IMG/VR virus record: IMGVR_UViG_3300030331_006345
Coordinates: 1-43,523 of that record
Origin: a virus
Length of the DNA: 43,523 bases
Strand: one strand, 5' to 3'
Shown here piece after piece: positions 19,463 through 43,523 of this stretch (positions are counted from its first letter, which is position 1; every line of letters begins with the position of its first letter). The translations under genes were made by a program, and so were the position numbers. Below the pieces are notes generated by a model that was not told the origin of the DNA, ran no database searches, and saw nothing but the letters and a program-made list of their open reading frames with translations.

Positions 19463-20529
19463 TAATTATTATCTAACAATTTTATATCATTATCAACCAT
19501 CTTTTTAACTAAACCTGGAAAATTAGTTTTAGGCTTCCATCCAAGCTCTTCTCTTGCTCTGCTAGAATCGCCCCAAAGCAAATCAACTTCTGCTGGTCTA
19601 TAAAATTGCGGATCAACTTCCATCAATAAATCACCACCATGAAAATATTTACAATCTTCATCTACTCCTTCCCATCTACACATTGATCTATGAAACCCTG
19701 CTGCGTTAAATGCCTCTTCAACAAACTCTCTAATTGTGTGAGTCTCATTAGAAGATAATACATAGTCATCGGGTGTTTTGCGCCAAATATTAATCCAGTA
19801 CTTCTCTTGATTTAACATTCTCCATATACCATCCATAAAATCCTCTGAATCACTCCAATCTCTTTTGGAATCTACATTGCCAAGCCTCAAAGGCTCAAAA
19901 GATTTTTTACTAGCATACTCATGGCTAATGCGAGCAACGTTCTGGGTAATTTTTCTTGTTACAAACTCAGATCCTCTTCTAACGCCTTCATGGTTAAAAA
20001 GCCAGCCTTGAATAGCATATAAACCATAAGAATCTCTATATACTTTAACTAAGTGCCTAGCAGAGCATTTAGAAGCCCCATACGGACTCCTGGGTCTAAG
20101 GGGGTGTTCCTCTGTTTGAGGTTCGGTTACAACGTCTCCAAACTCCTCAGAAGAGCCAGCGTTATAATATCTACACTGTGGACAATGTCTTTTTATAGCT
20201 TCAAGCTGATGTAATACAGCTAACGCATTTGTCTCCATATGCTGAGTAGGCATTTTCCAACTTGTACCCACAAAAGAATTTGCAGCAAAGTTGATAAAAT
20301 AATCAGGTTTGTGTTCAGCTATAACTCTATCTACATTTTGAGGATCAGTTACATCTAAATCAATTAGAAAAAACCTGGGGTTGTCTAATAAATGAAGAAT
20401 ATTCTCATGGTTTTTAACGCTTAATCTTCTAGCCCCGCCAATTATAGTGTGGGAAGTATTTTTTAAAAGATAGTCAACCATATTGCTACCATCTTGTCCT
20501 GTTACTCCTGTAATAATAATTTTTTTCAT
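19462..20529 (-). CDS. gmd: GDP-mannose 4,6-dehydratase
   Basis: About 355 residues, the usual length for Gmd. The Rossmann motif GVTGQDGSNMV is at the N-terminus. Catalytic and cofactor motifs are SSEEFG, then RPRSPYGASKC (YxxxK). Substrate-specific features are NHEGVRRGSEFVTRKIT, LRLGNVDSKRDW and YYRPAEVD-type FYRPAEVDLLWG. It converts GDP-mannose to GDP-4-keto-6-deoxy-mannose, feeding GDP-fucose, rhamnose or related sugars. The ATG at 20529 gives a TAATG junction with the upstream gene; an alternative ATG at 20535 adds two residues. No partner reductase (fucose synthase) is seen in the window. Confidence 0.95.
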   Translation of the reverse strand: MKKIIITGVTGQDGSNMVDYLLKNTSHTIIGGARRLSVKNHENILHLLDNPRFFLIDLDVTDPQNVDRVIAEHKPDYFINFAANSFVGTSWKMPTQHMETNALAVLHQLEAIKRHCPQCRYYNAGSSEEFGDVVTEPQTEEHPLRPRSPYGASKCSARHLVKVYRDSYGLYAIQGWLFNHEGVRRGSEFVTRKITQNVARISHEYASKKSFEPLRLGNVDSKRDWSDSEDFMDGIWRMLNQEKYWINIWRKTPDDYVLSSNETHTIREFVEEAFNAAGFHRSMCRWEGVDEDCKYFHGGDLLMEVDPQFYRPAEVDLLWGDSSRAREELGWKPKTNFPGLVKKMVDNDIKLLDNN

Positions 20530-21296
20530 TAGCATTCTCCTCTTATTGCTGGGTCAATATTATATTTTTTAAATAAAGGTTTTAATCTTTCTCTATATAA
20601 AGATGTTTGCCATTTTGATGGATTTCCATAGCTTGCTCCATGTAAAGCTGAAGACATGTAAGGAAAAGTGCTTGAATCTGAGTGAGCGGCAGTAACATCT
20701 CCTTGACATAATTTATCATTATTCCAAACAAATAAACCTTTTAGATTTAATTTTCTAGCTGCATGAGATCCTTTTATCTCAGCCTCATAAAAATTTTTAG
20801 GTTTGTATGAATTAAAATGATTTATAAGTGATTTTTTTTTCCATAAAGTAGCCTGTAAGCTATATAAATATTCACAGCTAAATGGCACTTCATAAAGATT
20901 TAGATCTTTATTAACTAATTTATTTGGTCCTGTATGCGACTCGTTTATACCTGATCTTATTAGCCTTATAAAATCATAGTCTGAATCTATTAAATAGTTT
21001 ATCATATTAGAGATCTTTGTTTCTTCCACGGCCGAATATAATACAAAATCCTCAAGTGAAAATAAAACTATGTCTTCTTCAATATGCTCTAAACTCTCAG
21101 TTAGCCTTTTGTAAAACGGGTCTGTCTCAATGTTAACAATTTGTTTGAATCCAGGATTTATTTTATCGCTCTTTTCATTAATAATCACACAGTGTTTAAA
21201 AAACGGAGCCATTTCTTCGTACTGACCATAGTACATAGGCCAAACATCATCATAGCTAGAATGTGTCCAAGTTGATACTATACATTTACTTATCAT
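20529..21296 (-). CDS. Probable glycosyltransferase, GT-A-like
   Basis: A 255-residue protein of the type often found in polysaccharide loci. It starts KCIVSTWTHSSYDDVWPMYY, has EEDIVLFSLEDFVLYSAV (a DxD-like acidic segment, LEDF), then DFIRLIRSG and LQATLWKKKSLI. The pattern of early Rossmann strand, acidic strand end and 'W' region is like GT-A enzymes, but no family signature is certain. It overlaps gmd and the phosphatase gene, so it belongs to the glycan cluster. Donor and acceptor unknown. Confidence 0.6.
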   Translation of the reverse strand: MISKCIVSTWTHSSYDDVWPMYYGQYEEMAPFFKHCVIINEKSDKINPGFKQIVNIETDPFYKRLTESLEHIEEDIVLFSLEDFVLYSAVEETKISNMINYLIDSDYDFIRLIRSGINESHTGPNKLVNKDLNLYEVPFSCEYLYSLQATLWKKKSLINHFNSYKPKNFYEAEIKGSHAARKLNLKGLFVWNNDKLCQGDVTAAHSDSSTFPYMSSALHGASYGNPSKWQTSLYRERLKPLFKKYNIDPAIRGEC

Positions 21297-26251: not shown

Positions 26252-26941
26252 TTACCAAATGCATTTTCTTGTAGAAAAATGTCCTCCGCTATAATAATCT
26301 CTAGCAAAACCTTCAGATTGCAACCATGGGTTTAATGTTGATCCAGCGTCTATATACAAATTATTTTTATTACTTTCAAATAATTGATGACATAGCATGT
26401 TTCCAAAAGGTCCACAACAAAAAAGAAAAAGTTTATTTTTTAAATTATTGTCTTTAATTTCTTTTATTAGAGAATAGTTATTAACCCAAGCGCTAAATCC
26501 TACCTTATATATTTTTTCAGGTTTGAAAGGTAGTTGATCAAATTTACCTCTTTCATTAGCTACTAGGTGAACATCATGATTACTATACTCTTTTAAAAAA
26601 GTTTCTTTATATATTTCATAATTTGTATTAACAAAAACATTTGCAAAAGTCATATGATCCTCATCTTGTTCACTGAATTCTCGCATTTTTTGCGCCCTAT
26701 CACCGTTACAGCATGGACAGCAAGTTCCTATATAATAATTAGGATCTTTAAATTTTATTGCATTTATAAGTTCTTGCCTATATTTTTGTTCAGTAGTGGG
26801 AGTATTTTCAAACTCACTATTATTTAAATTTTCATTAAGCATCGCTGCCCACTCACCATCTGCAAATTTAGAAAAAGCAAACGGTTTGCCTTTTTTAAAT
26901 TTTTCAAAAAGATTGTATATTTCTTGAGTAAAATCTTTCAT
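26252..26941 (-). CDS. GT-D-type (DUF1792-like) glycosyltransferase
   Basis: A 229-residue protein. FAFSKFADGEWAAML contains the D-x-E metal-binding motif typical of GT-D enzymes ('RFGDGE'). A CCPCCNGDR cluster is unusual; four Cys in five residues could bind metal. Later, YKVGFSAWVNNYSLI, KLFLFCCGPFGNMLCHQLF and YIDAGSTLNPWLQ fit the Rossmann part and the end of the family ('xDxGs'). It would transfer a sugar to a growing glycan. Its start overlaps the dehydratase stop (ATGA). Confidence 0.7.
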   Translation of the reverse strand: MKDFTQEIYNLFEKFKKGKPFAFSKFADGEWAAMLNENLNNSEFENTPTTEQKYRQELINAIKFKDPNYYIGTCCPCCNGDRAQKMREFSEQDEDHMTFANVFVNTNYEIYKETFLKEYSNHDVHLVANERGKFDQLPFKPEKIYKVGFSAWVNNYSLIKEIKDNNLKNKLFLFCCGPFGNMLCHQLFESNKNNLYIDAGSTLNPWLQSEGFARDYYSGGHFSTRKCIW

Positions 26942-27948
26942 ATTTTAAGCCACTCATCTCTATCTAAACTCCATTTTATTGTGGACTCTAATGACTGCTC
27001 GAAAGACACTGGATGATTCCATCCAAGTTTTTTCATTTTTTCTCCATCAAGAGCGTATCGTAAATCATGTCCTGGACGTTGACTATGAAAGTCAACCATT
27101 TCGTATTTTAATTCTTTACCTAATATGTCAGCTATTAATTGTGCCAATTGTAAATTATCAGTTTCTTTTTCACCAACTATATTAAATCTGCCCTTTGATG
27201 CATCATAGTTATCTAATGTTTCATCACAATTCTCTAAAATATGCAGAAGAGCATCAGCAATGTTTCTAGCATGTATGTAAAACCTACTTCCAGCTTCAGT
27301 TTTTTCTTTATTACTATGTATTGTAACTGTTTCATTATTCAGAACTTTATTGATTACTTTTGGTACAAACTTTTCTGGATGTTGTCGTTCACCTATAACA
27401 TTCATTGTATTCGTAATAATTATAGGTATTTTATAAGTATTAGCGTAAGACTGACAAATACACTCAGCGGCTCCTTTTGATGCAGAATAAGGGTTGCCAC
27501 AGTTAAATCTTTCTCCTTCTTTATAGTTTTTACCAATTGGCGCTGATCCATAAACTTCATCTGTAGAAAAATAAATGAATTTTTTTAGATTAGGAAGGCT
27601 CCTGGCATACTCTAAAATATGTAAAGTAGAGTCAATATTATTTTGAACAAAAGGGACTGGGTCAGATATTGAGTTGTCTACATGTGAATCGGCTGCTACA
27701 TGGAATATATATTCGATATCTCCTAATTCTTTTATTAACCCTTCTTGAAATGGCAAAGACAAATCTGTGGTAAATATTTTTACTCTGTCATCGTTAAACA
27801 CATTGATATCTCTGATTCTATCATGGCCTGAACTAGCATAGCTTAGCTTATCTAAGCAGTAGATTTCCCAATCTGTTTTCTTCAGAAAATGTTCTAATAT
27901 ATGATGTCCAACAAATCCATTGGCCCCTGTTAAGATTACTTTAGTCAT
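26938..27948 (-). CDS. NAD-dependent dTDP-glucose 4,6-dehydratase-like enzyme
   Basis: A 336-residue extended SDR. It shows KVILTGANGFVGHHILEHFL, then IFHVAADSHVDNS, IYFSTDEVYGSAP (the RmlB 'STDEVYG'), PYSASKGAAECICQSYA (YxxxK), NTMNVIGERQHPEKFVPKVI and RFYIHARNIADAL, and the C-terminal RPGHDLRYALDGEKMKKLGW. These are typical of RmlB. It makes a 4-keto-6-deoxy sugar nucleotide. No RmlA, C or D partner is in the window, so the substrate may be UDP- or GDP-linked instead. Overlaps its neighbours by 1-4 bases. Confidence 0.9.
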   Translation of the reverse strand: MTKVILTGANGFVGHHILEHFLKKTDWEIYCLDKLSYASSGHDRIRDINVFNDDRVKIFTTDLSLPFQEGLIKELGDIEYIFHVAADSHVDNSISDPVPFVQNNIDSTLHILEYARSLPNLKKFIYFSTDEVYGSAPIGKNYKEGERFNCGNPYSASKGAAECICQSYANTYKIPIIITNTMNVIGERQHPEKFVPKVINKVLNNETVTIHSNKEKTEAGSRFYIHARNIADALLHILENCDETLDNYDASKGRFNIVGEKETDNLQLAQLIADILGKELKYEMVDFHSQRPGHDLRYALDGEKMKKLGWNHPVSFEQSLESTIKWSLDRDEWLKI

Positions 27949-31518: not shown

Positions 31519-32479
31519 TAAAAATAGAAATATTTTCTAAATCAGGATTTTGAGCTAGTAAATCACTTTGATTATAAAAATTTTCATCATTCCAACCCCA
31601 CTCACTTAGCACTTCTTCATCATCCCAAGCTACTGCGTCACTTGATGTCATTTTGCTTACAGGTTTTTTACTCCAAAACCTACAAGACCAATATCTAGCC
31701 TTATACTTTGGACCTGGATTTGTATCACACTTATGTCTAGCTCTAAAATTTCTTCTTCTCTCTGGATCGTCTCTTTTTATCTCCATGTTTGGATCGCCAA
31801 ACTTAACCATGACAACATTACCTTTTTCATTTTTTACATACACACCAAACTTCTTTTTAGAGCCTGATGGTAACCTGAACGGCTTATTTAGAGTTTTTTT
31901 TTGAGCCTCTGTATAATCTAAATCTTCAGCCTCGTTGTCCATTTCCTCCTCAGATACACCAGCTTTTAAAAGATCGATTTTCGCCATAGTGAAGTTAAGA
32001 TCGCTAAATTCTATGTACTCACGACCTAGCTCTTCATTGTAATATTCTTCACTACCTCTAGCTATATCTGAATCAGCGGCACGGTAAGATTTCTTAACTT
32101 TGCCGCCTCTCATCATTTTTAGAAATGTATTCACTCTAGCCATAGCCCACTGGCCCCTGCTTTTTCCAGGTCTGTGGCTACTTGAAAAAGCTCCAGCGCC
32201 TCGCCTATAAACTTTTTTAAGTTGTCCTAATGTTACTTTTCTAGAGTGTTTGGAGTTATGCTCCTTTACTTTGTTTTTAAGAGCTGTTACTACTTTTTCA
32301 GAAAAAGTAATCTTAGGAGCTTTTTTGCCTCCGCCAGCTGACCCTTTAGGATTTTTCTTTGAACCTCTTCTGCGCTCTGAAGGTTTAGCTGGAGTCTGCG
32401 CTCCACTTTTGCGGCCAGGTCTCTTAGCAGCCTGTGACTCTAAAAAGTCTTTTGCTCGGTCTGAAAAATCATACTCCAT
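31499..32479 (-). CDS. Basic phage virion-type protein, hypothetical
   Basis: About 326 residues from ATG 32479 (a TTG at 32497 is also in frame). The N-terminal 70 residues are a Lys/Arg/Pro-rich tail (KRPGRKSGAQTPAKPSERRR). A domain follows with VTLGQLKKVYRRGAGAFSSS, then HRPGKSRGQWAMARVNTFLK, a recurrent phage module of unknown function. Its C-terminal part (FGVYVKNEKGNVVMVKFGDP, then RRRNFRARHKCDTNPGPKYK, ARYWSCRFW) is another module common in marine phage genomes. The end is acidic. It could bind DNA or act in capsid assembly; function not known. Confidence 0.7.
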   Translation of the reverse strand: MEYDFSDRAKDFLESQAAKRPGRKSGAQTPAKPSERRRGSKKNPKGSAGGGKKAPKITFSEKVVTALKNKVKEHNSKHSRKVTLGQLKKVYRRGAGAFSSSHRPGKSRGQWAMARVNTFLKMMRGGKVKKSYRAADSDIARGSEEYYNEELGREYIEFSDLNFTMAKIDLLKAGVSEEEMDNEAEDLDYTEAQKKTLNKPFRLPSGSKKKFGVYVKNEKGNVVMVKFGDPNMEIKRDDPERRRNFRARHKCDTNPGPKYKARYWSCRFWSKKPVSKMTSSDAVAWDDEEVLSEWGWNDENFYNQSDLLAQNPDLENISIFIEEEDL

Positions 32480-32518
32480 ACGAAAAAATTTACACAAAAA
32501 ATGATTAAAAATGAATTT

Positions 32519-34165
32519 TTATCCTTCGCAAGAGGAACAAGATAGAATAGATCTAGCTAACTCTTGGCTTGGGTTAGCACTTCTTTGGTAGTAAAACGTC
32601 TTAACTCCCTGCTCCCATCCAAATATCAGTAGCTCGCTTACTTGTTTTGGTGGGCATTTAGGTGAAATCATAAGGTTCAGACTTTGGCTCTGGTCTATGT
32701 ATTTCTGCCTTTGTGCAGCCTGAATTACTATTTCTTTTTGTGATATCTCTCCAAAAGTCTTAAATACATCTTTTTCTTCATCAGTTAAGAAATCTAAATG
32801 TTGAACTGATCCACCTTTAAGTAGAATAGATTTCCAGGTTTTTTGCGTGTTCTTTTTCTTTTCTTCTAAAAGATTTTCAAGATAAGGATTTTTGTAAGTG
32901 AACTTACCCTTGGCTAAATCCTTTGTAAAATAATTACTATTCAAAGGTTCTATGGATGGAGAAACTTGCCCTAGTATAAAAGAGCTTGAGGTAGTAGGCG
33001 CAATAGCCATTGTGGTCATATTACGCCTACCATAACCCTGGAGATATTCAGGTTCTCCAAGTAGGACAGAGAGATCTTCTGTTGCTTTGTCACATTTTTC
33101 TCTAATAAATTGATGTATTTCTTGGTTTAAAAACTGCGCTTGTAATCCCTCAAAAGGAATCATTTGTTTCTGCAAGTAAGAATGCCAACCCAAAACTCCT
33201 ACTCCAATTGCTCTTTGTCTTTTAGCAAACTCATGAGATGATTTCATGAATGGCATCCCAGAAGTTTTTTGTATATATTCTTCCATGACAGCATCAAGAA
33301 AAAATGTCAAAGTCTCTACAGCGTCAGTTTCTTTTATTTCGTCCCAATGGACTAAATTCAAAGAGGCTAAACAGCAAACAAAAGACTCTTCTTCAGATGA
33401 GCTTAGAGCTATCTCACTACAAAGGTTAGATGCATGTACTTTTAAATTTTTATCCTTATAAGCTTTGGGTGCAGCATCATTTACACTGTCAGTAAAAAAT
33501 AAATAAGGATATCCTGTTTCAAATCTTTTTCTTATAACAGAGGCCCATATAGATCTTTTTTCTTTGTCGCCATCCATAAGATCTCTCATCCAAGAGTTAT
33601 CAATGCATACTCCAAAAGATAAATCCTGTATGGGATGGCCCTCACTTCTAATTCTTAAAAACTCCTTAATATCTGGATGGTCTATTGGTAAATATCCAGC
33701 AAAAGATCCTCTTCTTACATTACTTTGTGAAACAACAGATGAAACTTTGTCAAAAAGCTCCATGAAATGTACTGATCCGCTAGATGTGCCTCCAGATGAT
33801 ATTTCTTCTCCCCTGCCTCTTAAAGAACCAAAATACGCTGATGTCCCAGCCCCATGTTTAGTTTGTATTCCTACTTCAGCTTGCTTTTCTAAGATAGAAT
33901 CCATCCTGTCTTCTATATAGACTCCATTACAAGAGATAGGCAAACCTCTTTCTCTGCCAAAGTTAGCCCATACAGGACTAGATAAAGAATAGAAACCCCT
34001 GGCTACATATTCTTCAAACTTTTCAGCAAATCCTTTTACATTTAAAATTTTTTCAGCAGACTTGGCTATATCGGCAACTCTTTGTTTCGGGGACTCGTCT
34101 TTTTCTAAATAACCTCTTTTTAAGAACGCTTTAGAATCTTTGTTTAACCAGTAATATTTTTTCAT
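32519..34165 (-). CDS. nrdA: Ribonucleoside-diphosphate reductase, large (alpha) subunit
   Basis: About 548 residues. Active-site features are PISCNGVY (redox Cys79), ASNLCSEI (N247, C249, E251), the VCCLASLNL Cys264, and AIAPTTSSSFILGQVSPSIEP. The C-terminal CSSCEG holds the Cys pair (C543, C546) that re-reduces the active site. The N-terminal ATP cone of bacterial NrdA is missing, so the enzyme lacks the usual overall-activity switch. It is shorter than bacterial NrdA (about 760) for this reason. The ATG at 34165 overlaps the nrdB stop (TGATG). It makes dNTP precursors for phage DNA. Confidence 0.95.
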   Translation of the reverse strand: MKKYYWLNKDSKAFLKRGYLEKDESPKQRVADIAKSAEKILNVKGFAEKFEEYVARGFYSLSSPVWANFGRERGLPISCNGVYIEDRMDSILEKQAEVGIQTKHGAGTSAYFGSLRGRGEEISSGGTSSGSVHFMELFDKVSSVVSQSNVRRGSFAGYLPIDHPDIKEFLRIRSEGHPIQDLSFGVCIDNSWMRDLMDGDKEKRSIWASVIRKRFETGYPYLFFTDSVNDAAPKAYKDKNLKVHASNLCSEIALSSSEEESFVCCLASLNLVHWDEIKETDAVETLTFFLDAVMEEYIQKTSGMPFMKSSHEFAKRQRAIGVGVLGWHSYLQKQMIPFEGLQAQFLNQEIHQFIREKCDKATEDLSVLLGEPEYLQGYGRRNMTTMAIAPTTSSSFILGQVSPSIEPLNSNYFTKDLAKGKFTYKNPYLENLLEEKKKNTQKTWKSILLKGGSVQHLDFLTDEEKDVFKTFGEISQKEIVIQAAQRQKYIDQSQSLNLMISPKCPPKQVSELLIFGWEQGVKTFYYQRSANPSQELARSILSCSSCEG

Positions 34166-35136
34166 CAAAATAGGTCGTCTGCATCAAATGTCTGTGAATT
34201 TTTTGAGTATTCGACAGGTCTAGAATGGAAAAAATCTGTGGCATTATTTCCCATTAATTCCTCTTCGAACCACATTGTATCTTCTAGTATAGAAGTTTCA
34301 ACATTAAATGCAGGTTCAAAACCTATTTTTTCTAAAGAATCATTGATTCTATTTTTTATGAATTCTTTTAAGATATCAGCGCTCAAGCCTTTTTCATTAA
34401 AACCGTTAACCATCCAGTCAATAATCTTACCTTCTGCAATAAAAGCTTCTTTAGCTTCATGCTTTATTCTTTCTTCTAGCTCTTTATCAAAAAGCTCAGG
34501 GTATTCGCTTCTTATGGTGTTGATTATCTTAATCCCAGCCAACGCATGAATGTTTTCTTCATTTCTAGTATACTTGACTTGCTGTCCAGTATCTTTAAGG
34601 ACGTTCCTATAACGATTAAACCAGTTAACAATATAAAACTGCGAAAAGAGAGAAACATTCTCCACAAAAAGCGTGAAAAGAATGATGGAATATACATATT
34701 GTTTTTTTGAATCTTTATAAAATTTGTGATTGTATTTTCTAAGATATTTTACACGACCTTCGATAAAATCTAATTTTAAATTTTCCTCAAATACATCCTC
34801 AAGCCCAAGCACTTTGAGCAGTCTTTCATAGGCATTATTATGGATTACTTCAATATTAGCCATAACATATCCTAGATCAGTTAAGCTAGGGTGAGGAAGG
34901 TTATCACCCAGTTTACTCCAAAACTTTTTCACGGCGACTTCTATCTGCCCAATAGCAGAAAGTGTGCGGATAATCATATCCCTCTCTTTGGGGGATAAAT
35001 TAACATTAAAGTCTTGTATATCGCTGCTAAAACTGAATTCTTTGTCTGTCCAAAACCCGTTGTGCATTGCCTCGATAAATTCTTGCGCCCAGGGATAATG
35101 ATCGGGCTTACGTGATAATTGTTCTTGGAAAATCAT
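34165..35136 (-). CDS. nrdB: Ribonucleoside-diphosphate reductase, small (beta) subunit
   Basis: A 323-residue ferritin-like protein. Metal ligands are E66 (QIEVAVKKFW), E96 and H99 (NIEVIHNNAY), E159 (LFVENVSLF), and E194 with H197 (NEENIHAL). The radical tyrosine is Y103, four after H99 as in class I enzymes. The first ligand is Glu rather than the usual Asp. It generates the radical for NrdA, which follows immediately. First gene of the long leftward block: a promoter-like sequence ends 9 bases before its ATG and there is no clear Shine-Dalgarno site. Confidence 0.95.
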   Translation of the reverse strand: MIFQEQLSRKPDHYPWAQEFIEAMHNGFWTDKEFSFSSDIQDFNVNLSPKERDMIIRTLSAIGQIEVAVKKFWSKLGDNLPHPSLTDLGYVMANIEVIHNNAYERLLKVLGLEDVFEENLKLDFIEGRVKYLRKYNHKFYKDSKKQYVYSIILFTLFVENVSLFSQFYIVNWFNRYRNVLKDTGQQVKYTRNEENIHALAGIKIINTIRSEYPELFDKELEERIKHEAKEAFIAEGKIIDWMVNGFNEKGLSADILKEFIKNRINDSLEKIGFEPAFNVETSILEDTMWFEEELMGNNATDFFHSRPVEYSKNSQTFDADDLF

Positions 35137-35145
35137 AGTTAGAAA

Positions 35146-35174
35146 GTTTTACACTTGAGTAGCTGTATCGTCAA
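35146..35174 (-). promoter_or_regulatory. Leftward sigma-70-like promoter upstream of nrdB
   Basis: On the minus strand TTGACG (35174-35169), a 17-base spacer and TAAAAC (35151-35146). The -35 matches 5 of 6 and the -10 matches 4 of 6 consensus positions. The predicted start is only about 3 bases before the nrdB ATG, so the message would be nearly leaderless. A second weaker pair (TTGTCA, 18 bases, TAAATT) lies further upstream. Confidence 0.45.
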
Positions 35175-35194
35175 ATATTAAAATCAAATTTAGC

Positions 35195-35237
35195 AAAAAA
35201 ATTTTTTTCTTGACAAATTTTAAGTTAGGAGTATAAT
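35195..35237 (+). promoter_or_regulatory. Near-perfect sigma-70 promoter with A/T-tract for the sigma-ssb operon
   Basis: TTGACA (35210-35215), a 16-base spacer, then TATAAT (35232-35237): both boxes match consensus at 6 of 6 positions. An A7T7 tract (35195-35208) directly upstream could act as an UP element or bend the DNA. The start is expected near 35244, leaving a leader of about 110 bases before the sigma gene. This looks like a strong early promoter read by the host polymerase. Confidence 0.8.
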
Positions 35238-35263
35238 ACCGTGAAACGGAACAAGGACGCTAT

Positions 35264-35313
35264 TGTAACTATAACGTAACAGGTATGAATTACGTATACT
35301 GTAACGATAACGT
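35264..35313 (+). promoter_or_regulatory. Operator-like direct and inverted repeats in the sigma-gene leader
   Basis: TGTAACTATAACGT (35264-35277) and TGTAACGATAACGT (35300-35313) agree at 13 of 14 positions, with starts 36 bases apart. Between them is an imperfect dyad (GTAACAGGTAT at 35276-35286 against ATACTGTAAC at 35296-35305). A TATAAT at 35316-35321 follows. The layout fits a repressor or activator site. The rest of 35244-35355 is AT-rich with no gene. Confidence 0.45.
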
Positions 35314-35355
35314 TTTATAATATATTTAATTATTATATAATTATATATAAATAAA

Positions 35356-35964
35356 ATGGAAAAAAGTGAAATAGATGCTAACATAGATCCTGTGCAGAGC
35401 GATTTAACTTTAATCAACAGGATTAAGGAAGATAATGATCAAGATAGTCTACTTGAGCTGATCAATAGGCATTCTGGAATTTACCACACTATGGTCAATT
35501 ATTTCCTATCTGGGTCTAACAATAACCTGGAAAAAAATGTTTTAAATCAGGAAAAAGATTTAGCTATTTACGACTCAGCTAAAAATTATGATCCAAATAG
35601 GAAAACTAAATTTTCAACGCATTTGGCTAATCAAACTAAATGGAAATGCCTTAACATTTTAAATAAAAAGAAAAAAGTTAAGGAAGTTTTTTTAGATGAT
35701 GAGGAATGCTTTATTGAGCCGTATTCTGATTCTTTCTATGAAAATCTTAAAAAAGAAGAGGCTTTAGCGGCTTTTTCAAAATGCTTGAAAAAAGAGCAAG
35801 ACGAAAGAATAAAAAAAATTATTGACAGGAGATATAATGTGAGTAATAATAAGCTCACTCCTTGGAGAGAAATAGCAGAGGATCTCGACATGAGCATTCA
35901 AGGCTGTATAAATCTTCATAATAAATTTATAGATAAAGTAAAAAAACAAACTCATAATGTATAA
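35356..35964 (+). CDS. Phage RNA polymerase sigma factor (gp55-like sigma-70 family)
   Basis: A 202-residue protein. Region 2-like sequence spans about residues 30-105: LLELINRHSGIYHTMVNYFL, then LAIYDSAKNYDPNRKTKFST and HLANQTKWKCLNIL, which matches 'AvxkFDPxxGxkFsTYaxxxI'. Region 4-like sequence is in the C-terminus (ERIKKIIDRRYN, TPWREIAEDLDMSIQGCINL) with a helix-turn-helix. No region 3 is evident. Like T4 gp55, it would direct host RNA polymerase to phage late promoters. First gene of the rightward operon, read from a strong promoter. No Shine-Dalgarno site; TATAAATA stands 2 bases before the ATG. Overlaps ssb by 8 bases. Confidence 0.83.
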   Translation: MEKSEIDANIDPVQSDLTLINRIKEDNDQDSLLELINRHSGIYHTMVNYFLSGSNNNLEKNVLNQEKDLAIYDSAKNYDPNRKTKFSTHLANQTKWKCLNILNKKKKVKEVFLDDEECFIEPYSDSFYENLKKEEALAAFSKCLKKEQDERIKKIIDRRYNVSNNKLTPWREIAEDLDMSIQGCINLHNKFIDKVKKQTHNV

Positions 35965-36331
35965 TTCAATAACATCAGCCGCATATCTTGTAAAAGATCC
36001 TGAAGTAAGAACTACCAACACTGGTAAAAAAGTAACCAACCTTAGGGTCGGTGTGTCATCAGCAAACGCTAAAACAAAGTGTTTTATTGATGTAGAATAC
36101 TGGGATAAAACAGCAGAACTAGCAGAAAAATATCTCAGCAAAGGTAGAGAGTTTATTGTTCAAGGAGAACTTTGCATGTCAAGCTGGGAGAAAGATGGCA
36201 AAAACTATAGTAAGTACTTTATTAGAGGTAAAGATCTTCAGTTCTTGTCTAACTCTAAAAAGAGTGACTCTGATGGCGGTGGCGATCAGAAAGATAGTGC
36301 AGATAATTCATCTGACGATGTTCCATTTTAA
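35957..36331 (+). CDS. ssb: Single-stranded DNA-binding protein
   Basis: A 124-residue SSB. The OB fold is clear: NSITSAAYLVKDPEVRTTNT, KKVTNLRVGVSSA, KCFIDVEYWDKTAELAEKYL, KGREFIVQGELCM and WEKDGKNYSKYFIRGKDLQF. A Ser/Asp-rich linker leads to the acidic tip SSDDVPF, like the DDIPF tail of bacterial SSB used to recruit partners. It protects ssDNA at the phage fork. Starts within the sigma gene, and its TAA shares a base with the next ATG (TAATG). Confidence 0.95.
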   Translation: MYNSITSAAYLVKDPEVRTTNTGKKVTNLRVGVSSANAKTKCFIDVEYWDKTAELAEKYLSKGREFIVQGELCMSSWEKDGKNYSKYFIRGKDLQFLSNSKKSDSDGGGDQKDSADNSSDDVPF

Positions 36332-37410
36332 TGAAGTTGCTTTTAGAAGTTCCTTTAAACAGGCTTAGCTTCGGGAACGTAGCTTTTAATTTAATACGAG
36401 AGCTACATAAAAAAGAAGTTGATATAGGTATATTTCCAATTGGAGATCCTGATCTTTCAGCTTACGATTTTTCCGAAGATCTTAAAAAGTATATAGAAAA
36501 TGCTATAAATGCCAGGTTTGATTATTTATCTCAAGACATACCTAGCTTTAAGCTTTGGCACTTAAATGGTAGTGAAAATAGGAAAACTAAAAATCAGTAC
36601 CTTTTTACTTTTTATGAGTGCAATCAACCTACGCCAATAGAGTCTGCAATATGTAACGTGCAAGACCATGTTTTCTTTAGCTCAAATGATGCTATAGATA
36701 ATTTTAAAAGAGTCGGTTGCAATAATACAAGTTTCCTACCTTTGGGTTTAGATGAGGATTTTAAAACAACTGGGAAAACTTACATGGAGGGTGTCACTCA
36801 TTTTGGGCTTATGGGTAAGTTCGAAAACAGAAAACACACCCAAAAAATAATACAGACTTGGTTAAAAAAGTACGGCAACAACAGTAAATATTTATTAACT
36901 TGCTGTATTACAAATCCATTTTTTAAGGAAGATCAAATGCAGGGTTTGATTAATAATACTCTAGGAGGAGTACATTATAGCAATATAAACTTTCTTCCTG
37001 TGCTTCAAAAAAATAGCGAAGTAAATGAGTTTTTAAATTCTATAGATATTGATCTTACTGGATTATCAGGAGGAGAGGGTTGGAATTTGCCAGCTTTCAA
37101 TGCAACTTGTTTAGGTAAGTGGAGTATAGTTTTAAACTGTACATCTCACAAAGATTGGGCAACAAATGAAAATAGTATTTTGATTAACCCATCTGGCAAT
37201 ATGCCTGTTTCTGATGGAATGTTTTTTAATGAACAGCAACCATTTAATCAGGGAACTTTTTATACTTGGACTGAGGATGAGGCAGTTTGGGCAATGGAAG
37301 AAGCCGAAGAAAAGGTGGGACAGATTAACACAGAGGGTGTCAAGCTTGGAGACAATATGACCTACTCTAAAACTGTTGATTGTATTTTATCCCTTGTTTT
37401 TAAGGGTTAA
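36331..37410 (+). CDS. GT-B glycosyltransferase (GT4-like)
   Basis: A 359-residue protein. The N-terminal start (MKLLLEVPLNRLSFGNVAFN) has the Gly-rich first loop. THFGLMGKFENRKHTQKIIQ is the typical second-domain strand with Arg-Lys. DIDLTGLSGGEGWNLPAFNA carries the GGEGWNLP donor loop, equivalent to 'GxxEGFGxxxxE'. NCTSHKDWAT and SILINPSGN follow as in GT4 proteins. It lies apart from the main glycan cluster, in the early-type operon with sigma and ssb. It could modify phage or host surface molecules early, or glucosylate DNA, but no evidence selects among these. Confidence 0.72.
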   Translation: MKLLLEVPLNRLSFGNVAFNLIRELHKKEVDIGIFPIGDPDLSAYDFSEDLKKYIENAINARFDYLSQDIPSFKLWHLNGSENRKTKNQYLFTFYECNQPTPIESAICNVQDHVFFSSNDAIDNFKRVGCNNTSFLPLGLDEDFKTTGKTYMEGVTHFGLMGKFENRKHTQKIIQTWLKKYGNNSKYLLTCCITNPFFKEDQMQGLINNTLGGVHYSNINFLPVLQKNSEVNEFLNSIDIDLTGLSGGEGWNLPAFNATCLGKWSIVLNCTSHKDWATNENSILINPSGNMPVSDGMFFNEQQPFNQGTFYTWTEDEAVWAMEEAEEKVGQINTEGVKLGDNMTYSKTVDCILSLVFKG

Positions 37411-37446
37411 AGCATTGGCACGAATACTGTTAATATATAAGGTATT

Positions 37447-37749
37447 ATGACTACATTATTTAATATATTAAACGATATACAATCCCAGGTAACTCCAACA
37501 GATGATAAAGACGCTTACGAGGTTGAATTTTCATTTGCTGGTTTTTCAAAAAGCCAAATTAAAATAACCGCTACTGATGAGCTACTAACTGTTGAAGCTA
37601 AAAACAAAAAAGATTCTAAGAAAAAGACTGTTGGTTTATACAACAAAATTTCTTTAGAACATATTGTGGCAGAATACAGCCATGGCCTTCTAAAGTTAAC
37701 ACTTCCAAAAAAAGGTGTAAACGGAGGTAGAGAAATTAAAATAACTTAA
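37447..37749 (+). CDS. Small heat shock protein (Hsp20/alpha-crystallin)
   Basis: A 100-residue protein that is almost entirely an alpha-crystallin domain: YEVEFSFAGFSKSQIKITAT, ELLTVEAKNKK, GLYNKISL and the signature GLLKLTLPKK. The N-terminal arm is short and the C-terminal IxI motif is absent, so large oligomers may be limited. Such proteins hold unfolded proteins and occur in many marine T4-like phages. It is preceded by 36 non-coding bases with a weak AAGG ribosome site. Its TAA overlaps the next ATG. Confidence 0.9.
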   Translation: MTTLFNILNDIQSQVTPTDDKDAYEVEFSFAGFSKSQIKITATDELLTVEAKNKKDSKKKTVGLYNKISLEHIVAEYSHGLLKLTLPKKGVNGGREIKIT

Positions 37750-38135
37750 TGCCAATTTACGTATATAAACACCCTGAAAAAGAAGAATACATTGAAGTCC
37801 TTCAAGGCATGAATGATGAACATGTATATGAACAAGATGGTTTAGCTTGGGAGCGGGTTTTTCTCGCTCCCAACGCATCTATCGATAGTGATGTAGATCC
37901 ATTCAATGGTAGACAGTTTGTTGATGCAACAGCAAACAAAAAAGGCACAGTAGGAGATATGATGGATTTTTCAAAAGAACTTAGCGAAAAAAGAGCTAAA
38001 TCAAATGGGGGTGTTGACCCTGTAAAAAAACAATATTATAAGAATTACTCTGAAGCTCGTAATGGAGCTAAACATCCTAAAGAAATTAGAGAAAAGGGTT
38101 ACGAGAGTAAAAATGTAAAAATAGATTTTGATTAG
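37749..38135 (+). CDS. Small conserved phage protein, FmdB-like N-terminus
   Basis: A 128-residue protein. It starts MPIYVYKHPEKEEYIEVLQG, resembling the FmdB family ('MPxYxYxCxxCG'), but the zinc cysteines are missing. The middle (WERVFLAPNASIDSDVDPFN) and the end (GTVGDMMDFSKELSEKRAKS, then GGVDPVKKQYYKNYSEARNG) follow the pattern of a protein common in marine phage genomes. Role unknown. It converges on the tail gene that ends at 38132; the two stop codons overlap (TAG at 38133-38135, and TAA of the opposite strand at 38134-38132). Confidence 0.72.
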   Translation: MPIYVYKHPEKEEYIEVLQGMNDEHVYEQDGLAWERVFLAPNASIDSDVDPFNGRQFVDATANKKGTVGDMMDFSKELSEKRAKSNGGVDPVKKQYYKNYSEARNGAKHPKEIREKGYESKNVKIDFD

Positions 38136-39538
38136 GTATAATAAGTACCACTCAATCTTAATCCTCTCTTCTCAGTAACCTCAAAAGTAAATGAAGCATT
38201 AAAAGTCATAATGCCATTTACAGGTAAAGAGTAGCTAAAATTTTCAAGCTTTGCTCCATCAATGTTGTAAGACATATTTTTACCAGAACCATCTAAAACT
38301 AAATCAAAAGTATAATCTGTTTCGTTAGCTAAGATACCAGATATTGTTCCATCATCATATCCAGAAACTAATGAACTAACATTAAATGTTCCCTGGGCTG
38401 GCATTTGAGCTTTTCGGTTATAAGCATAATCACTTCCTAAGCCATAAGAAGATGTTCTCTGTAAGGCAACAGATAAATCTAGAGATTGTACGAAATGAAT
38501 TCCAGAAAGATTTTGTCCACCTGCCTGTAGATTTTGTAGGGTTATAGTGCTATCAGAATTTTTTGGATTAACTAAAACAGGATTTTTTGTCCCAGTTGTA
38601 AACAAAAATCTAGCTCTACCTACATTGTTTGCGTTACCACTTTCTAGATTTATTGCAGGAGAAGCCATACTGGTTCCAGTAAGTCCTTCAAACTTCATAT
38701 TAGAACAAACATAACTTGTTGTTACAGTTGGTAAAGAATCAACTCCATAGGTAAGGCCATAAGAGCTTAAAAAGCAATTTCCAAAAGCCGCACTTTCAAA
38801 ATTATTTAGATTGTTCGCTGCGCTTGGCGTATTAGCTTGACCCCCCATTGCAGAGTGGTATTGACAATAATAGTAAAGAGTTGGTGCGTCATCAGCTACC
38901 ACTATGGTAGTTTTATGATTACCGTCGTCTTTTGTAACTCCGACTGTATATTCTGAACCTCCTCCATGTGTTCCATTTGGTGTTGTTGAAAATCTTACTG
39001 GGTGACTTGTGGCAGCTGACCAATCAAATATGTATGTATTACCTTCAATTAGTTCTAAAGTTGGTTGCTGAACTCCATCAATAAAATACTTGTTACCACC
39101 TCCAATGTTCTGAAATGTAACAGTAAAAGTAGTGGTTGCACCGTCTTTTAAATTAATTAAATTTAAAGCATCAAGCTCTTGATCTGGATTATTTAATAAA
39201 TAAAAATTTGTATTATTTTCTAAAGTGCCAGAGAAAGCTTGTATTGAGTTGTTATAACTATCAACTGTTTTTATAAAGTTGCCATGAACCTCGTTTTCTA
39301 GTTTTGGTTCTGGATAGTATGAAAAACTTAGTTCTACATCAGGCTGGATAAAAACATCATTCAAACTAAAATCCTGAGTGCCAATTTGCTTAGAGGGTTG
39401 ATGCTCTATAGCTATTGCAAAACTTGTATTCTGAACAGCATTAAACAAATTCATATCTTGTGTACCAGTGCTAAAAGCCTCTGTACCAGTTGATACAGCC
39501 ACGATTGCATTGTTACTTTTTATGATATTTCTAGGCAT
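38132..39538 (-). CDS. Tail protein with cupredoxin-like insertion
   Basis: A 468-residue protein in the tail module. The two ends look like tail-tube or adaptor sequence (ALQRTSSYGLGSDYAYNRKA, GIMTFNASFTFEVTEKRGLR), related to its neighbours by place and composition. Residues about 135-237 are a cupredoxin-like insertion: TTFTVTFQNI, YFIDGVQQPTLELIEGNTYI, FDWSAATSHPVRFS, YTVGVTKDDG and TLYYYCQYHSAMGG. The four usual type-1 copper ligands are all there: H179, C225, H228 and M231, with C-x2-H-x2-M spacing. The module resembles the 'YYYCxxHxxMGG' repeats seen in marine phages and bacteria. Copper binding is inferred. Its role could be adhesion, stability or redox. Confidence 0.75.
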   Translation of the reverse strand: MPRNIIKSNNAIVAVSTGTEAFSTGTQDMNLFNAVQNTSFAIAIEHQPSKQIGTQDFSLNDVFIQPDVELSFSYYPEPKLENEVHGNFIKTVDSYNNSIQAFSGTLENNTNFYLLNNPDQELDALNLINLKDGATTTFTVTFQNIGGGNKYFIDGVQQPTLELIEGNTYIFDWSAATSHPVRFSTTPNGTHGGGSEYTVGVTKDDGNHKTTIVVADDAPTLYYYCQYHSAMGGQANTPSAANNLNNFESAAFGNCFLSSYGLTYGVDSLPTVTTSYVCSNMKFEGLTGTSMASPAINLESGNANNVGRARFLFTTGTKNPVLVNPKNSDSTITLQNLQAGGQNLSGIHFVQSLDLSVALQRTSSYGLGSDYAYNRKAQMPAQGTFNVSSLVSGYDDGTISGILANETDYTFDLVLDGSGKNMSYNIDGAKLENFSYSLPVNGIMTFNASFTFEVTEKRGLRLSGTYYT

Positions 39539-39539
39539 A

Positions 39540-40517
39540 TTATGATCCTGTTGGTATGATACCCAGCGGGTCTTCTACTAGAGTTACAGTTAAATTATTA
39601 GAATTAGCATAAATCCAAGTATGGCTCCATTGTGGGGAATAGTAAACTTTAGGTCTATTGTAGACGCTTGGAATATCGTGTTCAAATCTTCTATATCCAC
39701 CTTTATTTTCCAGGAAGTGCAGCATTGATTTTAACTGAACATCAGTGATGTTTGTATAGGAGTACGATGTATCAAACTTCGCTATGTTTTGAGTATTTTT
39801 CTTACCACCTAATCTTTGTACAAAAGAATTTTTGAAGTTTGTTTTATCTGATTTTATACCAACATTAAACTGCTGGGTTTGATCTGGTTCAAAGAAAAAC
39901 TTTTGAGTCCACATTGTAGAGGCTCCTGTAGGAGAGTTTGTCGCTGAACTAGTATGATCCCCTGTGCAGTAATAAAAATTATTTAAATTATTATTATTCA
40001 CGCCAGAATGAACCACATCATATTTTTTATATGCATTTGAAGGAACCCAACCCTGAAATTCTAAATTAGTAAAATTATTACCAGACCAATTAAATAAATT
40101 AGGCGCAGTATCAACAGCAACTTTTGCATTAAATGTTAAATTTTGATTATTGTTTACTTGTATAGAATACTGCTCGCAGAATCCAGACAAGTTTTTGTAA
40201 ATTCCTGAATTGTCAGCATTAAATTCAAAAGCAATAAATCCAGACTTACTCTCAAAAAAGTTTGCTAAACCGCTAGCATTATGTTCATTTACAGAATATT
40301 GAACATCAAATTCAGCTGTTAAACTGTTTTCAGATAAAGGAACTAGCTCATAATAAAAATCATCTGTAGTATAAGAGTTGAAAGAAGATTTAAAATTTAC
40401 GCTAGATCCATAGTTAGGAGTTAAGCTGTATTCATCTAACCTTCCTGACGCTTGTAAAGCTGCACCATCAGCACCAGAAAAGTTACGATTCCTATTATAA
40501 AATAAACTTTCGCTCAT
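39540..40517 (-). CDS. Minor tail protein (gpM-like) with chitin-binding-like insertion
   Basis: A 325-residue protein. The C-terminal part (LKSMLHFLENKGGYRRFEHD, then WSHTWIYANSNNLTVTLVE) matches the 'FLEaRgGxexFxW...CrxWsxxxxxxxxxTLxatfeE' pattern of phage minor tail proteins of the lambda gpM type. Residues about 157-206 form an insertion like CBM5/12 chitin-binding modules: W157, then NAYKKYDVVHSG, FYYCTGDHTSS and STMWTQKF (W203). It could anchor the tail tip to a surface glycan. Its TGA overlaps the next gene (ATGA). The N-terminus is specific to this phage group. Confidence 0.72.
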   Translation of the reverse strand: MSESLFYNRNRNFSGADGAALQASGRLDEYSLTPNYGSSVNFKSSFNSYTTDDFYYELVPLSENSLTAEFDVQYSVNEHNASGLANFFESKSGFIAFEFNADNSGIYKNLSGFCEQYSIQVNNNQNLTFNAKVAVDTAPNLFNWSGNNFTNLEFQGWVPSNAYKKYDVVHSGVNNNNLNNFYYCTGDHTSSATNSPTGASTMWTQKFFFEPDQTQQFNVGIKSDKTNFKNSFVQRLGGKKNTQNIAKFDTSYSYTNITDVQLKSMLHFLENKGGYRRFEHDIPSVYNRPKVYYSPQWSHTWIYANSNNLTVTLVEDPLGIIPTGS

Positions 40518-41329
40518 GATGAATGACCCATATAGTTTAAAGTTAATCTAAGAGAACCATCAGAAGAAGCATTTAAAGATTCACTTACTAAACAAGCATT
40601 TGGTATTGATGTATTAAGCAATGTAGATGTACCATCTCTTCCTTCAATAGTTAAGTTGACACTTCTGCTACTTTTGCCAGTCTCTAAAAATCTCCTACCA
40701 CTCTCCATAAAAGCATCATCAACTTCTATTTGTATTGTGGCATTAACTTGTAAGGGATTTAAATATTTAACTTCTACTGGCCCTTTTTGACCTACGCTAT
40801 AGTAAGGCTTTCTTCTTGGGCTTACGCTGTAATCAAAACCTATCACTCTATTCGTAGTACTATTATCACAAGTTGCAGTTATGCTTCCTTGGGATGGAAT
40901 AAATATAGATGGAGATGCAACACTTCCTGATGCACTGACACCAGTTCTCATTTCATCATAAACAGCAAAAGTAGCCGTCTCTTTGACAGGAGCGCCCACT
41001 GCACAGCTTACGGACCAATTGTTCAAATATCCACTTTGGAAGCCATATGAGTTACCCTCGTAGTGAATACTGCCCGATAAATTAGTGTCACCAGTGTAAG
41101 CTGGGCGACCACCTATACCAGACCCTAAAATAGAATTAGAAATTAAATCTCTAGTAAAAGAAAAAGTTTGATCAACATTACCCGCAACGGTTGTTAAACC
41201 CTCCGTATAACCAAGTGGGTTAACAACGTTTGTCGAATTACTGTAAGAAATGTCTACAGAATTGATGCCAGAAACCTCTTGTCCATCAAGAAACAATAAT
41301 GTATCATAATTTAACTTTGTACCAAACAT
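40514..41329 (-). CDS. Tail structural protein (tube-like)
   Basis: A 271-residue beta-rich protein, rich in Ser, Thr, Asn and Gly. It starts MFGTKLNYDTLLFLDGQEVS, then SYSNSTNVVNPLGYTEG, QTFSFTRDLISNSIL and SGYLNNWSVSCAVGAPVKET, and ends VNLTIEGRDGTSTLL and SDGSLRLTLNYMGHSS. The two-half beta pattern resembles phage tail tube proteins, but no family signature was recognised. Its start lies at the TAA of the tape-measure-like gene (TAATG), and the next gene overlaps its end (ATGA). In many phages the tube gene precedes the tape measure, so here it may instead be a distal tail or adaptor protein. Confidence 0.6.
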   Translation of the reverse strand: MFGTKLNYDTLLFLDGQEVSGINSVDISYSNSTNVVNPLGYTEGLTTVAGNVDQTFSFTRDLISNSILGSGIGGRPAYTGDTNLSGSIHYEGNSYGFQSGYLNNWSVSCAVGAPVKETATFAVYDEMRTGVSASGSVASPSIFIPSQGSITATCDNSTTNRVIGFDYSVSPRRKPYYSVGQKGPVEVKYLNPLQVNATIQIEVDDAFMESGRRFLETGKSSRSVNLTIEGRDGTSTLLNTSIPNACLVSESLNASSDGSLRLTLNYMGHSS

Positions 41330-43523
41330 TATACTCTAAGCATTCCTCCCAATCTTTTCTCTTGGGATAGTACGTCTCTTACAGCATCTTTCAATTTAGC
41401 TGCTAAGTTTTGATCTTGTTGGTCGGCTGAACCAGAGTTATTTTCTCTCTCTCCTCCATCAGAGTTAACAACAATACTAATATTAGTGTCTCCTTTTGTT
41501 ATACTAGTAGAACTTCCTCCACCAACATTTCCACCAGCATTTAAAGTTTCTAGATTACCTGCGCCAATTCTCTGGGTTGCACCCGCATTCATTACGAACT
41601 CACCGCCAGATAACATTGCTGGCACTGTATCAACTCCAGCTGCATAAGGAACACCACCACCTCCAGCCATGTATGGAATCATTCCTCCCATTGGTCGCAT
41701 ATATGGGATCATTCCTCCCATGGGTCGAGCTTTAGGAAATAAAGCATTATCTATAGGAATCTCTATTTGTGGACCCTGACTAGGATTTGGTAAATATGAA
41801 TCCACAGTGTGCTTAAATTTAAAACCCATATGACTTGCTGGGTTAGAAAACCTTTCTATCAAAGAGCCTGGACCTTGATATATATCTAGTAGATTACCAG
41901 TAATGGCATTAGCTGAGGATGTTGGCAAAAAATTAATTTCACTTACCCCTACTGGCAACGCTCTTGGAGCTTTACCTAATAATCCTGGAGGCAACTTACT
42001 AGCTGATATGCCTTCAGGTCTCACATTTGACTGCAAACCTGAAGTTTTTCTTCCTCCAAATATTCCTCCTGCTCCAAATGCGCCCTTAAATAAAGCCATA
42101 CCAGCCGCCAAACCTAATGAAGCAAATAATCCTCTTCTTCTTTCTTTCTTGGCTTGAGCTAATTCTCTCTCTTGTTCTTTTCTTTGCTTGTCTGCACTTA
42201 ATTGTTGTACAAATAAATCAAAAGCATCAGCTTTAGCTCCTTGAGTTCTTCTAAATGCTGGACTTAAAGATCTTCCTAAGTTTGTTAAAGATAAACTTTC
42301 TGGTGCTAATGCGACAGATGCAAATCCAGCACCACCACCAAATCTATCAAAAGCCCCAGATGTTCCTGTTTGAGTTGCAAAGTTTAGTAAGTTTTGTTTT
42401 CCAGATATAGCTCCTTGTCCAAAACTTCCTGGAATAAACATGCCTCCATTAGCAAACCTCGGAACAGCTCCTTCGTTAATAGCATTCATGAACCCAGTTC
42501 CAAATTTTTTAACAGAGCTTTTTCTCATGACAAACTCACCACCAGTTAATAACGCTGGTACATCATCTTTATTGCCAGAGCCTCCCCTCACCATTCCACC
42601 ACTATGTCTTTTTAAAATACCCCCTAAGAATCCGAAAATTCCTCCGCCTCCGCCGCCACTTACTATACTATCAGCAGCTGCTTTCATTTGCGCTCTAGCT
42701 AATATTGTAAAGAAATCTGTAGCCGCAGAAACTAAAGTATCTTTCAAACTTTTTCCTTGAACAATAGCATCAACTAACCCATCGGCTATGTTGTTAGTAA
42801 AAGTTTCCGATGCATCTATTAAAGTCATAGATAATCTATCGGCTTGATCTAATTGATTTACTAAAGTAAAATCATTAGTTTTTTCTGCAACTCTTAACGC
42901 AGCCATCATCTTTGGAGCTGAATCAAATCTAGATTTACCTCTAATTCTATCAAAAGCTGTACCTCTTTTAGCGTCTAATTCTAAAGCTCCACTTCTTAAT
43001 TTATTTAATAAATCGTTTGCAGCAGCACCAGCTTGCTTGGCAGCACTACCAGAAGCCTTTAGAGCCTCCGTTTGCTGTTCTATAAGATTTTTTATAAATA
43101 AATCCTGCTCGGATTGTTTAATCTTTGAATCTAATAAATCATTAGATAAACTTATTTGAGTTTCAGTTAATGCTTTTATCTTTACAAAGTTTAAACCTTC
43201 CTCACCTAAAATTTCACCCAACTTTGCGCGAGCCATATCTGGACTAAATTCTCCACCAAGTGATATATCTTCAAATTTTAGAGATCTCAAAGCAATCCCC
43301 ATTTTTACTAATCCATCGATAGGAACAGATAGTTCATTTGATTTTTTTATCAATTCTTCTACAGTTCCAACGAATTTAAGAACTGTGGCCTCTCTTGTTT
43401 TTTCTGTCTCAACAGTTCTTCTTAAAGCACTTAATTCAGATTCTGGGACATTTCCAAAAACAGAACCTTCAGCAATCCTTCTTTCAGCCGCTGAAGGTGT
43501 AAGCTGCCTAGTTTTTATTTCTC
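41329..43523 (-). CDS. Tape measure-like tail protein, C-terminal part (5' end outside the window)
   Basis: The open frame continues to the right edge, so the start is not in the window; a TTG at 43353 is internal. At least 731 residues are present. The first 300 are helical and Gln/Lys/Glu-rich with Ala-rich coiled-coil stretches (ETQISLSNDLLDSKIKQSEQ), and IVQGKSLKDTLVSAATDFF resembles tape measure sequence. The motif 'DxVPAxLxGGEFVMxxxA' occurs twice (DDVPALLTGGEFVMRKSS and DTVPAMLSGGEFVMNAGA). This motif is a hallmark of C-terminal parts of phage tape measure proteins. One region is rich in Gly and Met with a repeat of RPMGGMIPYM. It sets tail length and may enter the host membrane on infection. 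Confidence 0.78.
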   Translation of the reverse strand, partial: EIKTRQLTPSAAERRIAEGSVFGNVPESELSALRRTVETEKTREATVLKFVGTVEELIKKSNELSVPIDGLVKMGIALRSLKFEDISLGGEFSPDMARAKLGEILGEEGLNFVKIKALTETQISLSNDLLDSKIKQSEQDLFIKNLIEQQTEALKASGSAAKQAGAAANDLLNKLRSGALELDAKRGTAFDRIRGKSRFDSAPKMMAALRVAEKTNDFTLVNQLDQADRLSMTLIDASETFTNNIADGLVDAIVQGKSLKDTLVSAATDFFTILARAQMKAAADSIVSGGGGGGIFGFLGGILKRHSGGMVRGGSGNKDDVPALLTGGEFVMRKSSVKKFGTGFMNAINEGAVPRFANGGMFIPGSFGQGAISGKQNLLNFATQTGTSGAFDRFGGGAGFASVALAPESLSLTNLGRSLSPAFRRTQGAKADAFDLFVQQLSADKQRKEQERELAQAKKERRRGLFASLGLAAGMALFKGAFGAGGIFGGRKTSGLQSNVRPEGISASKLPPGLLGKAPRALPVGVSEINFLPTSSANAITGNLLDIYQGPGSLIERFSNPASHMGFKFKHTVDSYLPNPSQGPQIEIPIDNALFPKARPMGGMIPYMRPMGGMIPYMAGGGGVPYAAGVDTVPAMLSGGEFVMNAGATQRIGAGNLETLNAGGNVGGGSSTSITKGDTNISIVVNSDGGERENNSGSADQQDQNLAAKLKDAVRDVLSQEKRLGGMLRV
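41668..41727 (-). repeat. 30-base tandem repeat in the tape-measure-like gene
   Basis: Two 30-base units, 41727-41698 and 41697-41668 on the minus strand, encode RPMGGMIPYM twice. The units differ at only a few bases, mostly at third codon positions. Probably a recent in-frame duplication. Confidence 0.85.

Follow-up and report, generated by a model that had tools for sequence, protein, structure and literature searches.

The window, i.e. the whole stretch of DNA analyzed here, is a 43.5-kb virus record from a marine phage that encodes a DNA polymerase, a DnaB-like helicase, a UvsX-like recombinase and a ribonucleotide reductase. According to the gene order, a tail-region operon on the minus strand ends with a gene (38132..39538) whose ORF and translation yield a protein of 468 aa. 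This protein was assigned to no family and carries an inserted cupredoxin module. In minus-strand order it is preceded by a tape-measure-like gene (41329..43353), a gene for 271 aa (40514..41329) and a gene for 325 aa (39540..40517), all located on the minus strand. The frame of the tape-measure-like gene is open at the end of the window, and its product matched PHROG tail length tape measure families down to E 2.3e-15. The 271-aa product remained without family in Pfam and PHROG searches. The 325-aa product gave a weak match to the lambda-type minor tail family Phage_min_tail (E 3.2e-7), which lies under the Pfam cut-off. Opposite the 468-aa gene, a convergent block harbors ssb-like, glycosyltransferase and Hsp20 genes.

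Attempts were also made to identify the backbone of the 468-aa protein. Outside the domain, no significant match was obtained in Pfam and PHROG searches, and a tblastn search of 50,697 phage records with the backbone gave zero matches. Paralogy with the 271- and 325-aa neighbours was rejected, as the similarity was not significant. Thus, homology of the backbone to tail proteins was not found by Pfam, PHROG, tblastn or the comparison with the neighbours. In an AlphaFold model of the full-length protein, residues 133-240 were ordered, and pLDDT values elsewhere were 22-41. Foldseek with this model returned essentially only matches of the domain and did not identify the backbone. The protein had initially been annotated as part of the tail module. 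Its position after the tape-measure-like and Phage_min_tail-like genes agrees with this assignment; the backbone itself contributed no recognisable family, so that a tail role is deduced from gene order only.

Some other genes of the window should be mentioned. The Hsp20/alpha-crystallin gene lies at 37447-37749; elsewhere, Hsp20 counts among the core genes of cyanophages (PMC3037559). At 7437-9869 an 810-aa protein is encoded, which strongly matched the phage ATP-dependent protease family phrog_4871 (E 4e-205). Moreover, there are two nucleotide-sugar epimerase-like genes (19462-20535 and 26938-27948) and two glycosyltransferase genes of a common PHROG family (2870-4759 and 36331-37410), which suggests a cassette for the modification of surface sugars.

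Fold and ligands of the inserted domain

The module comprises residues ~131-239 (38822..39146, minus strand). Its limits were deduced from the empty site in a sister phage (see below), from the ordered segment 133-240 and from the fold. The initial annotation had placed the domain at residues 135-237, in agreement with the span of homology, the ordered segment and the stretch missing in the sister phage. It had also named H179, C225, H228 and M231 as ligands, numbers which are exact in the 468-aa translation. On the minus strand, the codons of these residues lie at 39002..39004 (H179, the N-terminal His ligand within an HP motif), 38864..38866 (C225), 38855..38857 (H228, the second His ligand) and 38846..38848 (M231, the axial Met ligand). 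A further histidine, H191 of a GTH motif (38966..38968, minus strand), was invariant in close viral copies.

The 113-residue domain was modelled by AlphaFold together with 56 homologues (mean pLDDT 94.7, pTM 0.87). As had been anticipated, a beta-sandwich was predicted; it has eight strands and the Greek-key topology typical of type-1 copper proteins. In the numbering of the domain model, the four ligands are H50 (H179), C96 (C225), H99 (H228) and M102 (M231). H179 is located just ahead of strand 4, C225 at the end of strand 7, and H228 and M231 in the loop between strands 7 and 8, M231 just ahead of strand 8. This placement of the ligands relative to the strands is the canonical cupredoxin arrangement. 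The ligands also occur in the order of a type-1 site, and the C-x2-H-x2-M spacing in the strand 7-8 loop is that of amicyanin. A CuA site was rejected, since the loop lacks a second Cys.

Foldseek searches of the PDB gave the multicopper oxidase McoA, a three-domain CuNIR, rusticyanin and CueO as top matches, with E values down to 8.8e-05, followed further down by a pseudoazurin with an engineered amicyanin loop (rank 17) and AcoP. Query-normalised TM-scores to the solved copper proteins were moderate, reaching only 0.4-0.57, and the module is therefore a divergent cupredoxin. Rusticyanin, multicopper-oxidase and CuNIR domains are thus the best matches among solved structures; unlike these proteins, the 468-aa protein possesses neither a second or trinuclear copper centre nor a catalytic partner domain. 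With the PF00127 cupredoxins of the plastocyanin/azurin type, the module shares the eight-strand sandwich, the His before strand 4 and the Cys-x2-His-x2-Met between strands 7 and 8. It differs from them in that nearly all copies read HP, not HN, at the first His, and in that it resides within virion structural proteins and not as a soluble electron carrier.

At the level of profiles, the relationship was detectable but distant. By hhalign, the diverse domain alignment matched PF00127-type cupredoxins from marine genomes with E 1.3e-5; both His ligands and the Cys were superposed, and the ligand loop of the module was two residues shorter than that of the marine set. When a profile of the broad alignment was compared with all PDB sequences, plastocyanins ranked at the top with the four ligands aligned, the E value being only ~0.09. 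Sequence-only searches of the PDB with the window protein or a narrow alignment did not give a meaningful cupredoxin match. None of the Pfam and NCBIfam models passed its own cut-off for the module. The window protein did not match Pfam PF00127 (Copper-bind), the gathering cut-off not being reached, and among 56 members 16 were weakly matched by PF00127 (best E 0.0045). The NCBIfam models of amicyanin (TIGR02657) and plastocyanin (TIGR02656) gave weak matches in distant relatives only, all below cut-off, e.g. 20.5 bits for L123 with the plastocyanin model (cut-off 87.85) and 13.7 bits for L084 with the amicyanin model (cut-off 110.2). Thus, the claim of fold and ligands stands, but formal membership in Pfam PF00127 does not. 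Another family, the At5g54830-like domain (PF25489), weakly matched two secreted bacterial relatives (L123, L148) below cut-off and was not detected in the window protein.

The four ligands H179, C225, H228 and M231 did not vary among 56 distinct close copies from viruses, and 155 of 156 distinct domains, those of cellular genome assemblies included, retained them, the exception being a degenerate fragment copy. In a diverse alignment of 51 rows with a mean column identity of 36%, only Y169, H179, P180, C225, H228 and M231 were invariant. In copies from cells and in distant ones, H191 had frequently given way to other residues; it therefore lies outside the defining site. Since the ligand motif was itself part of some search patterns for loci, copies found without it were inspected for a seed bias. 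C-x2-H-x2-M was kept in all 28 viral domains without the seed LYYYCQYH, and the Cys-His-Met motif in 10 of 11 cellular copies found without a motif seed. Complete domains in isolate and single-cell phage records fetched by tblastn had H...C-x2-H-x2-M in 21 of 21 cases, down to ~30% identity. A seed bias of the pattern search as the source of the conservation was rejected on the basis of the seedless viral and the tblastn copies.

These data bear on several assumptions of the initial annotation. Its statement that the ligands do not form a random Cys/His cluster is borne out by their conservation across homologues, by which a chance cluster was rejected. Loss of H179, C225 or M231 in close homologues, which would have spoken against a copper site, was looked for, and none of the 56 close viral domains had lost any of them. 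The cupredoxin reading itself is upheld by the eight strands, the matches to type-1 copper proteins in the PDB, the conserved ligands and the profiles aligned with PF00127-type proteins and plastocyanins.

Mobility and distribution of the domain

The IMG/VR contig L168 is colinear with window positions 32114-42825, and the flanks of the domain share 89-91% nucleotide identity. In the same gene, this sister phage lacks exactly positions 38822-39146. Close relatives can thus gain or lose the domain, the backbone of 360 residues being conserved. Compared with the closest module-bearing relatives, dN/dS was 0.08-0.09 for the backbone and 0.23-0.25 for the domain. Judged from these substitution rates, the domain evolves faster than the backbone yet remains under constraint.

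After masking of the domain, the carrier proteins fell into 30 groups without detectable similarity, a count that was based on open frames and excluded carriers with short flanks. The module is mobile and resides in about 30 unrelated protein backgrounds. In a domain tree, which comprises few columns and whose bootstrap values are unsettled, the window copy grouped with a copy in an unrelated frame of 1697 aa. Virion-type and cell-type copies interleaved in the tree; supported branches forced at least seven changes of label, a number that is approximate because we assigned the labels from protein starts and contig type. In a 1,700-aa protein (L161:974-6118), the domain precedes what seems to be a peptidase of the subtilisin type with Ig-like repeats. 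In the tree, the copy of this protein is the sister of that in cyanophage MED4-213.

A tblastn search of the 50,697 phage records with the window domain yielded 176 records at E<=1e-3 and 227 at E<=1e-2. The named hosts were all marine (Synechococcus, Prochlorococcus, Pelagibacter, Methylophilales). With a divergent gp9 copy as query, 330 phage records were obtained, which belonged only to Synechococcus, Prochlorococcus and Pelagibacter phages, other cyanophages and marine viral records. The carriers are annotated as gp9, tail fibre, proximal tail fibre or virion structural protein. In many T4-like cyanophages, cultured ones included, the domain forms the C-terminus of gp9, the connector of baseplate wedge and tail fibre. 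Copies with intact ligands at this position were seen at L084:3995-4267 and in L086, L201-L204 and L207, records that do not name the domain. Tail fibres of Pelagibacter phages carry it as well. In S-TIM5 it is encoded by the second gene after the portal gene, and in S-SCSM1 by the gene of the proximal subunit of the long tail fibre, annotated as a virion protein. For the latter phage, 45 virion proteins have been identified by mass spectrometry (PMC9602691). Some marine phages contain the domain in several structural genes, and P-SSM2 has four copies in one genome. The cyanophage gp9 C-terminus (PHROG 677) and the tail fibres of cyanophages and pelagiphages (PHROG 30742, 693) hence share the domain and its four ligands with the window protein; their backbones are unrelated, and they are annotated as structural only, the domain not being named copper-binding. 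Such a domain on a phage tail had been thought to be unusual. This view has to be corrected, since hundreds of marine phages carry it.

In phage S-SCSM2R (PQ898602.1) a carrier of only 168 aa (L205:2773-3279), which adjoins an S8 peptidase gene, is annotated as PetE. For this member of the virion-domain family, the label is probably a misleading annotation. Small beta-sandwich proteins of Pithovirus/Marseillevirus (BFVD A0A481Z6J5, A0A481Z7Q7, A0A481YVH3) matched the domain model by structure.

Genome assemblies contained the domain in phage-like genes, too. In SAR86, OM182, K189A and Cellvibrionales, its carriers had an N-terminus that was lipoprotein-like (CGGGGG) or signal-like; in Flavobacteria it occurred inside very large proteins, and in a lipoprotein of marine Euryarchaeota alongside collagen repeats. 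Among the cell-type carriers there were predicted lipoprotein and secreted starts as well as cadherin and collagen repeats. Proteins with collagen-like repeats from Bacteroidetes and marine Euryarchaeota (L164:3792-5237, L165:4272-5333) ended in the domain and revealed an adhesin-like layout. Secreted-looking proteins of Cellvibrionales (L123:4560-5654, L129) contained two to three tandem copies, each with the ligand set. Plasmids searched for the domain gave no match.

Possible role of the module on the virion

Cupredoxins, the phage gene petE and tail-fibre iron are known; a description of a cupredoxin domain in virion proteins was not found in the open-licence literature. The widespread occurrence of the cupredoxin fold and site in a virion structural setting thus is apparently undescribed. 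The plastocyanin encoded by petE is, like the module, a phage-encoded cupredoxin. However, petE encodes a photosynthetic electron carrier, stands free and is known as a gene of its own in cyanophages (PMC3037559), whereas the module sits within virion structural proteins. For tail fibres, metal sites with an ecological meaning in the ocean have been proposed, namely HxH sites for iron (T4 gp37; the Ferrojan horse hypothesis) (PMC11705849). In these sites, octahedral iron is bound between histidines of a trimeric fibre, unlike the four-ligand cupredoxin pocket within one chain considered here.

Our main reading, to which we assign a probability of roughly 0.6, is that residues ~131-239 constitute an optional, self-contained cupredoxin module with a putative complete type-1 site, which would be exposed on the virion, loaded with copper and in contact with the host. 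The data agree with an accessory module for binding or decoration that would lie on the surface and depend on all four type-1 ligands for its function. We infer that copper binding by the module is likely, and its exposure on the surface of the virion appears likely to the same degree. Host contact is the leading function that we tentatively propose from the places where the domain occurs. In this reading, the module is an optional decoration that occupies a loop of a structural protein from the tail region, and it is one member of a widespread family whose copies have been exchanged between the virion proteins of marine phages and proteins on the outer surface of marine bacteria and archaea. 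Projecting from the virion, it would bind one copper ion via His179-Cys225-His228-Met231. The copper-loaded module would then participate in contact with the host surface, and the metal would determine how rigid the binding face is and possibly also its redox state. As virions are assembled in a copper-scarce cytoplasm, copper loading would have to come late.

The main rival is a purely structural copper site, at which the metal would only stabilise an extracellular beta-sandwich, the module serving as a spacer or decoration without metal-dependent contact. The many unrelated protein contexts and the absence from a close relative are expected of such a generic decoration, but the near-absolute retention of four ligands at ~30% identity exceeds the needs of a spacer. 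Moreover, many phage Ig-like decorations do without metal. We regard a merely stabilising role as rather unlikely. A cupredoxin-like or Ig-like adhesin that binds no copper, in which Cys, His and Met are kept for a structural or thiol role or for another metal, would account for the sequence divergence of the family from Pfam cupredoxins; that the invariant residues include precisely the four type-1 ligands at canonical strand positions makes it improbable.

An analogous reasoning to the iron model leads to a copper Trojan horse, where host receptors for copper acquisition would recognise copper borne by the virion. Tail fibres and fibre connectors are frequent among the carriers, the named hosts among the matches are all marine, and in the case of iron, both the metal of tail fibres and the limitation of metals in the sea have been proposed as relevant (PMC11705849). 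This idea is pure analogy, though: no copper receptor has been implicated, and copies of head-region type, e.g. that of S-TIM5 near the portal gene, do not suit a receptor ligand, so that we consider it quite improbable. Even less can be said for an electron carrier or a part of a redox enzyme active in the infected cell in the manner of phage plastocyanin, despite the complete type-1 site and the one record that labels a carrier PetE. A soluble carrier is unlikely in view of the fusion of the domain to structural proteins and of the surroundings, in which no redox partner was recognised; in the window, this applies to partner oxidases and reductases beside the 468-aa gene. In addition, cyanophages have petE as a gene of its own (PMC3037559). 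We judge this function to be very improbable indeed.

Returning to the reading of an exposed, copper-loaded module, many ocean-phage structural proteins share the domain though unrelated to each other, and a copper site on marine virions thereby becomes a testable prediction. In a wider version, which we hold to be unlikely, blue-copper centres would be general and overlooked in marine virions; copper would be loaded extracytoplasmically, and its occupancy or redox state would tune or trigger attachment to the host. If this were true, marine phage infection would be linked to copper availability. Together with the natural empty site, the module offers a defined system for asking what tail decorations do. 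If the site binds copper, many of the most thoroughly studied ocean phages, T4-like cyanophages included by way of gp9, would carry a metalloprotein centre on their particles, and there would be a concrete metal-dependent step in the adsorption of marine phages. Organically bound copper in seawater might then also be carried by virions, which would parallel the hypothesis put forward for iron.
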